This document shows positions 26,983 to 55,491 of a DNA stretch of 64,000 nucleotides, in pieces. The translations under genes were made by a program, and so were the position numbers. The first letter of the stretch is position 1. Every line of letters begins with the position of its first letter. The DNA lies in contig NZ_QFFG01000002.1 in the NCBI RefSeq assembly GCF_003129485.1, positions 62,001-126,000 on the forward strand, given 5' to 3'. A model generated the notes under the pieces. The model did no database searches and was not told the origin of the DNA. It saw only the letters and a list, made by a program, of their open reading frames with translations. Origin of the DNA: Polaribacter aquimarinus (GTDB lineage Bacteria > Bacteroidota > Bacteroidia > Flavobacteriales > Flavobacteriaceae).

Positions 26983-27061
26983 GCGTGTTAAGGATTGCAA
27001 TGACATCCTTTTTTTCTTTTTCTGAAAAAAAAGATATAATGGAAAGCCCATTAAAACGCCC
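26983..27061 (+). repeat. Structured repeat element, copy 1 (possible conserved RNA)
   Basis: This 79-base element lies between purD and the glycosyltransferase. It starts GCGTGTTAAGGATTG and ends GGAAAGCCC-ATTAAAACGCCC. The outer ends pair (GCGT/ACGC and TTAA/TTAA). GGAT-N9-ATCC forms a hairpin, a T-run/A-run stem (TTTTTTTC and GAAAAAAAA) makes the middle arm, and AATGG-AAAGC-CCATT (27038-27052) makes a third stem. Copy 2 at 55378-55491 shares the ends but has AACAG-AAAGC-CTGTT in that stem, a compensating change, and a different middle arm. The Flavo-1 RNA motif of flavobacteria is one known candidate family; I cannot test it here. The strand is uncertain. Confidence 0.6.
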
Positions 27062-27075
27062 AAATAAAAATACAA

Positions 27076-55377: not shown

Positions 55378-55491
55378 GGGCGTTTTAACAGGCTTTCTGT
55401 TTCAATCTTTTTATTTGTTCTCGATACAAATTTGCAAAGGCAAATTCACTCGAACTGACATAAAAAGGATTTCCACGTCAATCCTTAACGC
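55378..55491 (-). repeat. Structured repeat element, copy 2, within the RND operon
   Basis: Read on the minus strand, this 114-base element begins GCGTTAAGGATTG and ends CAGAAAGCCTGTTAAAACGCCC, as copy 1 at 26983-27061 does with small changes. AACAG-AAAGC-CTGTT (55387-55401 on the plus strand) replaces AATGG-AAAGC-CCATT, keeping the five pairs. AAGGATT-N8-AATCCTT is the first hairpin. The middle arm holds an extra palindrome, absent from copy 1: GTTCTCGA and TCGAAC around AATTTGC-AAAG-GCAAATT (55416-55456). It lies ten bases downstream of the adaptor stop and 15 bases before the permease start. A fold in the mRNA could change permease expression relative to the adaptor. Confidence 0.65.

Follow-up and report, generated by a model that had tools for sequence, protein, structure and literature searches.

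Two copies of a folded intergenic element lie in the window, by which we mean the whole stretch of 64,000 nucleotides of Polaribacter aquimarinus DNA analysed here. Copy 1 (26983..27061, + strand) is located between purD (upstream, on the - strand) and a glycosyltransferase-like gene and is antisense to both, with 14 nt between its right end and the purD stop codon. Copy 2 (55378..55491, - strand) separates hlyD-like and acrB-like efflux genes, runs in the same sense as both and lies 10 nt past the hlyD stop codon. Both copies are thus found 10-14 nt past a stop codon, in opposite orientations. An initial reading made from the sequence only had located these two elements by their common ends, GCG..TTAAGGATTG and TTAAAACGCCC, and had described their opposite relation to neighbouring transcription; both descriptions hold, copy 1 being antisense and copy 2 sense, each between co-directional genes.

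The same reading had proposed a possible match to a flavobacterial motif, Flavo-1 (Rfam RF01705; Weinberg 2010, PMC2864571), which Rfam types as 'Gene; sRNA'. An Rfam search gave 47.7 bits for copy 1 (match 26992-27048, +) and 49.9 bits for copy 2 (match 55499-55382, -), both over the gathering cut-off of 42, and it is near certain that the two elements belong to this family. The Rfam covariance search of the genome, which had been suggested as a check, returned 24 matches at E <= 0.001 in the whole assembly, 19 of them above the cut-off, so that the description as a 'two-copy' element is true of the window only. By a simple ORF call all these matches lie between genes, with one exception overlapping an opposite-strand ORF of 112 codons, which is perhaps no gene.

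Anatomy and covariation of the element

The consensus of the conserved shell was drawn from 122 distinct cores. Its Watson-Crick helices are short and alternate with G-A-rich 3x3 loops of the form GNA/GNA: from outside in come 3 bp, A.G and 2 bp, then a first 3x3 loop (GNA/GNA), 2 further bp, another 3x3 loop (GGA/GNA or GRC/AYA) and AUC/GAU; the innermost parts are a T-run/A-run stem and then a free tip. The arms of this shell are GATTGCAATGACATCCTTT (5', 26993..27011) and AAAGATATAATGGAAAGC (3', 27030..27047) on the + strand in copy 1, and GATTGACGTGGAAATCCTTT (5', 55464..55483) and AAAGATTGAAACAGAAAGC (3', 55392..55410) on the - strand in copy 2. The outer ends of Polaribacter copies are of two types: [GCAAACAAGTY]TAGCCC..GGAAATAGCTTC, and GCGTTA..AACGCCC, to which a side hairpin ACC..GGT is often added. 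Both window copies present the GCGTTA..TTAAAACGCCC end-type, and its A-rich tail in copy 1 (AACGCCC-AAATAAAA; 27062..27069, +) is common to orthologues and other copies. Some copies of the family have an alternative inner core, TTTGAGCTC../..GCGAG. Both strands of both window copies fold better than shuffled sequences.

The evidence for covariation in the long Flavo-1 helix is overwhelming. Among 52 distinct cores, 98.8% of cells are paired, 122 cells are doubly changed from the commonest pair (41 +/- 10 after shuffling), and the covariation score is 0.562, against 0.166 when shuffled and at most 0.143 when slid. Watson-Crick pairs make up 829 of 854 cells (512 expected after shuffling), with 12 G-U and 5 A-C. 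The patterns used to gather the cores hold the inner part of each arm fixed, so these are counts for intact copies. At the locus of copy 2, 99.3% of cells pair among 23 distinct orthologues, and four pairs show double changes. The sequence-only reading was right that the element covaries but had picked the wrong stem, AATGG/CCATT in copy 1 and AACAG/CTGTT in copy 2. CTGTT hardly varies, and only 3 of 29 arms pair fully; considered as a family feature, this stem pairs no better than with shuffled partners (p = 0.41; 29 distinct 3' arms of the same end-type). The variation of AACGG, AATGG and AACAG comes from their pairing with the 5' arm. The hairpin AATGG-AAAGC-CCATT (27038..27052, +) is a local alternative, present also in minimum-energy folds, which the family does not conserve.

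Rewriting of the element at fixed sites

The view of a conserved shell around a variable insert is confirmed between related species at orthologous sites. The exchanged tip of copy 2 (55416..55460, -) is a separate palindromic repeat, TGTCAGTTCGAGTGA..TCGAGAACA, which forms the tip in 6 of the 24 copies of this genome (copy 2 and five others). We observed that this palindrome is a repeat in its own right. Polaribacter sp. Z022, the nearest named relative of the window's HlyD (97% identity), has TTTTTTTGCTGCCATTTATGGCAAAAAAAG in its place, the rest of the element being almost identical, so the middle hairpin is indeed exchangeable, as had been supposed. Because Z022 keeps the short tip, the exchange in copy 2 is recent. 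By its named relatives, the window's HlyD puts this genome in Polaribacter.

The hlyD-acrB junction carries the shell in 17 of the 27 Polaribacter genomes having that junction, with at least five unrelated tips. Bizionia, Tenacibaculum, Winogradskyella, Yeosuana and Flavobacterium frigoris have the shell there too, and passage of the operon from one genus to another may contribute to these shared copies. Most genomes have a short GCTGCCATTTATGGCA hairpin as the tip; in others its place is taken by an insert with TACTGAACTTGTTTCAGTA, by a CATTACGAGGAGTG repeat or by a TACTGAGCGAAGTCGAAG one, and the TGTCAGTTCGAG palindrome is found in this genome and in Tenacibaculum. The shell at this junction is 84-92% identical, against 49-67% at fourfold sites, and for genome pairs whose HlyD proteins are 70-75% identical the values are 89% and 52%, respectively. 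Judged from these values, the junction's shell is under purifying selection. The distance from element to stop codon differs widely among species. The hlyD-acrB spacers without Flavo-1 (L128, L129, L130, L131, L134, L354, L366, L373) frequently hold another hairpin, CCCTTTCCTTTGGAAAGGG or CCCCTTTGGGGA, as if some hairpin were wanted or tolerated there. For copy 1, orthologues follow purD in 8 further Polaribacter genomes, and in three others (G001, G043, G046) purD abuts the next gene directly at this site.

Comparison of two sister Polaribacter species, G034 and G037, revealed at least 29 sites matching on both flanks, several of which had their inner core replaced while both outer ends were kept (e.g., G034:4043388 and G037:3122562). 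Of 16 apparently unique G034 sites that we examined, most are matched by a shell at the corresponding position in G037 or in a further genome, G040, either with an exchanged core or with a repeat, CTTTCGACTNCGCTCAAGATAAAYTCC, in the internal loops; a few counterparts are empty or hold another hairpin. In these three genomes CTTTCGACTNCGCTCAAGATAAAYTCC stands exactly where an internal loop would have GGA (3' arm) or GGC (5' arm) (L105, L305, L311, L317, L323, L327, L329, L331, L336, L337, L339). In 800 kb sampled regardless of Flavo-1 it occurs 5 times, 4 of them in Flavo-1 loops (three scored automatically and one, L305, by eye). Together, these comparisons showed that Flavo-1 is rewritten in place by swaps of hairpin segments nested in one another (tip, inner core, side hairpin) and that other palindromic repeats land at its tip and in its two internal loops. 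The shell is selected at the level of structure; the tip can be replaced, as can the inner core over longer times.

Placement, range and mobility

In G034 and G037, none of the copies tested lies inside a gene; divergent junctions are depleted of unique copies (7/79 vs 55/241, p = 0.005) and convergent junctions enriched for them (22/79 vs 33/241, p = 0.006). In three Polaribacter samples the right end is at most 15 nt from the stop codon of the gene to the element's right in 16 of 31, 9 of 22 and 11 of 22 cases, where random placement predicts 4.3, 2.8 and 4.2, respectively. Flavobacterium shows no such crowding (5 observed vs 4.5 expected) and this, together with the variable distance at hlyD-acrB, makes proximity to a stop codon no general requirement. 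Relative to co-directional neighbours, Polaribacter copies (the best ones from other genomes) strongly prefer the antisense orientation, with 4 in sense and 24 in antisense; Flavobacterium shows no such bias (12 and 13, respectively). The unique loci of G034 and G037 are biased with respect to the replication strand (59 to 26, p = 4e-4, about 70:30), a bias absent in Flavobacterium G228 (15 to 14). On account of this absence and of a skew too weak to resolve the matter in Polaribacter G001, we do not rely on it as a sign of a DNA-level process. In G034 and G037 it may result from how genes are oriented or from what happens to hairpins in lagging-strand DNA. An apparent frame-locking of stop codons to the element was put down to a minimal-gap mode and duplicated orthologues.

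Copy number within Polaribacter ranges from 0 to over 60, with 24 to 69 intergenic copies in the genomes examined closely. Since 7 of 47 good Polaribacter genomes have no match, the element is dispensable. Matches occur in at least 60 of 392 Bacteroidota genomes, mostly Flavobacteriaceae, a lower bound owing to strict filters. Three exact Flavo-1 patterns had no match in 2.9 million viral contigs, and blastn found none in phages and plasmids; a palindromic control repeat was recovered in 52 viral stretches, a contrast which is suggestive only, the Flavo-1 patterns being longer. Mobilisation by a RAYT/Y1 transposase was considered and discarded, as Flavo-1 and Y1 are not associated across 60 Polaribacter genomes, and the copy-rich genomes G001, G008, G021, G029 and G054 gave no match to Y1 (PF01797). 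The genome's single Y1-family (RAYT-like) gene (positions 1430-2080 of L025, G000:C1:765322-768654) has a palindrome of its own on its flanks, CCTTTCAGGTTTTAAAAACCTGAAAGG / CCCTTCAGGTTTTGAAAACCTGAAGGG, and is a REP system separate from Flavo-1.

Interpretation and comparison with known systems

These data show Flavo-1 to be a hairpin dispersed over the chromosome between genes, with a folded shell under selection, and long retained at particular gene junctions. Our preferred account, which we advance tentatively and by analogy, is that it is a REP-like folded element acting in cis beside gene ends and not a trans-acting small RNA. It would work at gene ends as a hairpin, about 8-15 nt from the stop codon and able to fold on either strand, that most likely impedes ribosomes on their way off the stop codon and/or nucleases that break down the message; the outcome would be a tuning of the gene just upstream, in which the tip would play no part. 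The nearest functional analogy would be a REP close to a stop codon: in E. coli, stop-proximal REPs lower translation of the upstream gene (PMC12306157). New copies could possibly arise through a single-stranded DNA route. Counting against this account are the antisense preference in Polaribacter, unexpected for a hairpin indifferent to strand, the lack of crowding near stop codons in Flavobacterium and the Polaribacter genomes without any match.

The main rival is a selfish hairpin repeat bringing no benefit to the host, which spreads, perhaps as folded single-stranded DNA handled by some enzyme, settles where it is least harmful and is rewritten by ectopic exchange. We regard it as a possible explanation, though not a probable one. 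Swings in copy number between 0 and more than 60 among genomes of one genus, the avoidance of divergent promoters, the in-place exchange with other repeats targeting the element, and the scarcity of wobble pairs, unusual in an RNA helix, are all in its favour, but the shell is strongly conserved per site over genus and family distances, like orthologues rather than paralogues, many copy-rich genomes have no Y1 transposase, and the searches of phages, plasmids and viral contigs found no copy. A more far-reaching reading appears rather unlikely to us as a whole: Flavo-1 would be no RNA gene but a modular chromosomal hairpin repeat, its nested segments would be exchanged as units between sites at the internal loops, its GNA/GNA loops would be precise landing sites for other palindromic repeats, and all this would proceed via a non-Y1 enzyme on folded single-stranded DNA. 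The sequence-only reading had left the choice between a structured RNA and a small mobile repeat, and the outcome is mixed, since strong structural selection at fixed sites agrees with the former, whereas repeat-like swings in copy number, an orientation that is not constant across genera and rewriting in place agree with the latter.

Within that choice, a trans-acting small RNA family, as listed in Rfam, is the least supported option and seems improbable. The strongly covarying structure fits it, and G-U slightly outnumbers A-C where positions pair, which points to folding of the + strand; however, the dozens of scattered copies have no constant relation to transcription, copy 2 sits within an operon-like gene pair, and placement and free orientation across genera speak against it. 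The published transcriptome of F. psychrophilum likewise revealed no consistent relation: some Flavo-1 hits coincide with transcribed regions, in sense or in antisense, and many with none (PMC9723704). That the elements are intrinsic or bidirectional transcription terminators is very improbable: the enrichment at convergent junctions and the many copies close behind a stop codon would suit such a role, but the T-run lies inside the stem and not after it, an ordinary terminator-like hairpin belonging to the neighbouring gene comes before several copies, and copy 2 separates two co-directional genes of one transport system. The outer AAGCTA/TAGCTT stem proposed for the TAGCC end-type, the commonest one, which together with a T-run would have formed a terminator, fails the shuffle test (p = 0.98), and the initial opinion that the element is not a terminator thus stands.

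Since 2010 Flavo-1 has stood in the lists as a structured RNA with no function attached to it, and the comparative evidence now supplies properties open to test: a shell under selection, tips of no apparent consequence, a post-gene placement in Polaribacter and in-place cassette exchange. The hlyD-acrB junction, which several genera conserve, is a named locus suited to functional tests. If the REP-like account is true, many of the sRNAs annotated in flavobacterial genomes would be mislabelled.

The elements share with the published Flavo-1, a short motif typed as sRNA, their arms, internal loops and taxonomic range, but differ from it by the outer end-types (TAGCC..GGAAATAGC, and GCGTTA..AACGCCC, partly with the side hairpin ACC..GGT), the alternative inner core (..TTTGAGCTC..GCGAG..) and the freely exchanged tips. 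Like REP and BIME sequences (PMC2817692), they are dispersed chromosomal intergenic hairpins with compensatory changes, found near stop codons in both orientations and serving as insertion sites for other elements. Unlike REPs with RAYT, they have no GT(A/G)G head, their hairpin feet being TAGCC or GCGTTA, and no association with a Y1 transposase, the genome's own Y1-family gene being flanked by a different palindrome; since Y1 is absent from many copy-rich genomes, Flavo-1 elements are not classical REPs. Finally, their exchanged tips and loop inserts are themselves MITE-like and nested palindromic repeats of flavobacteria, whereas Flavo-1 differs from such repeats in having internal loops instead of plain terminal inverted repeats and in being kept by structural selection at fixed sites.
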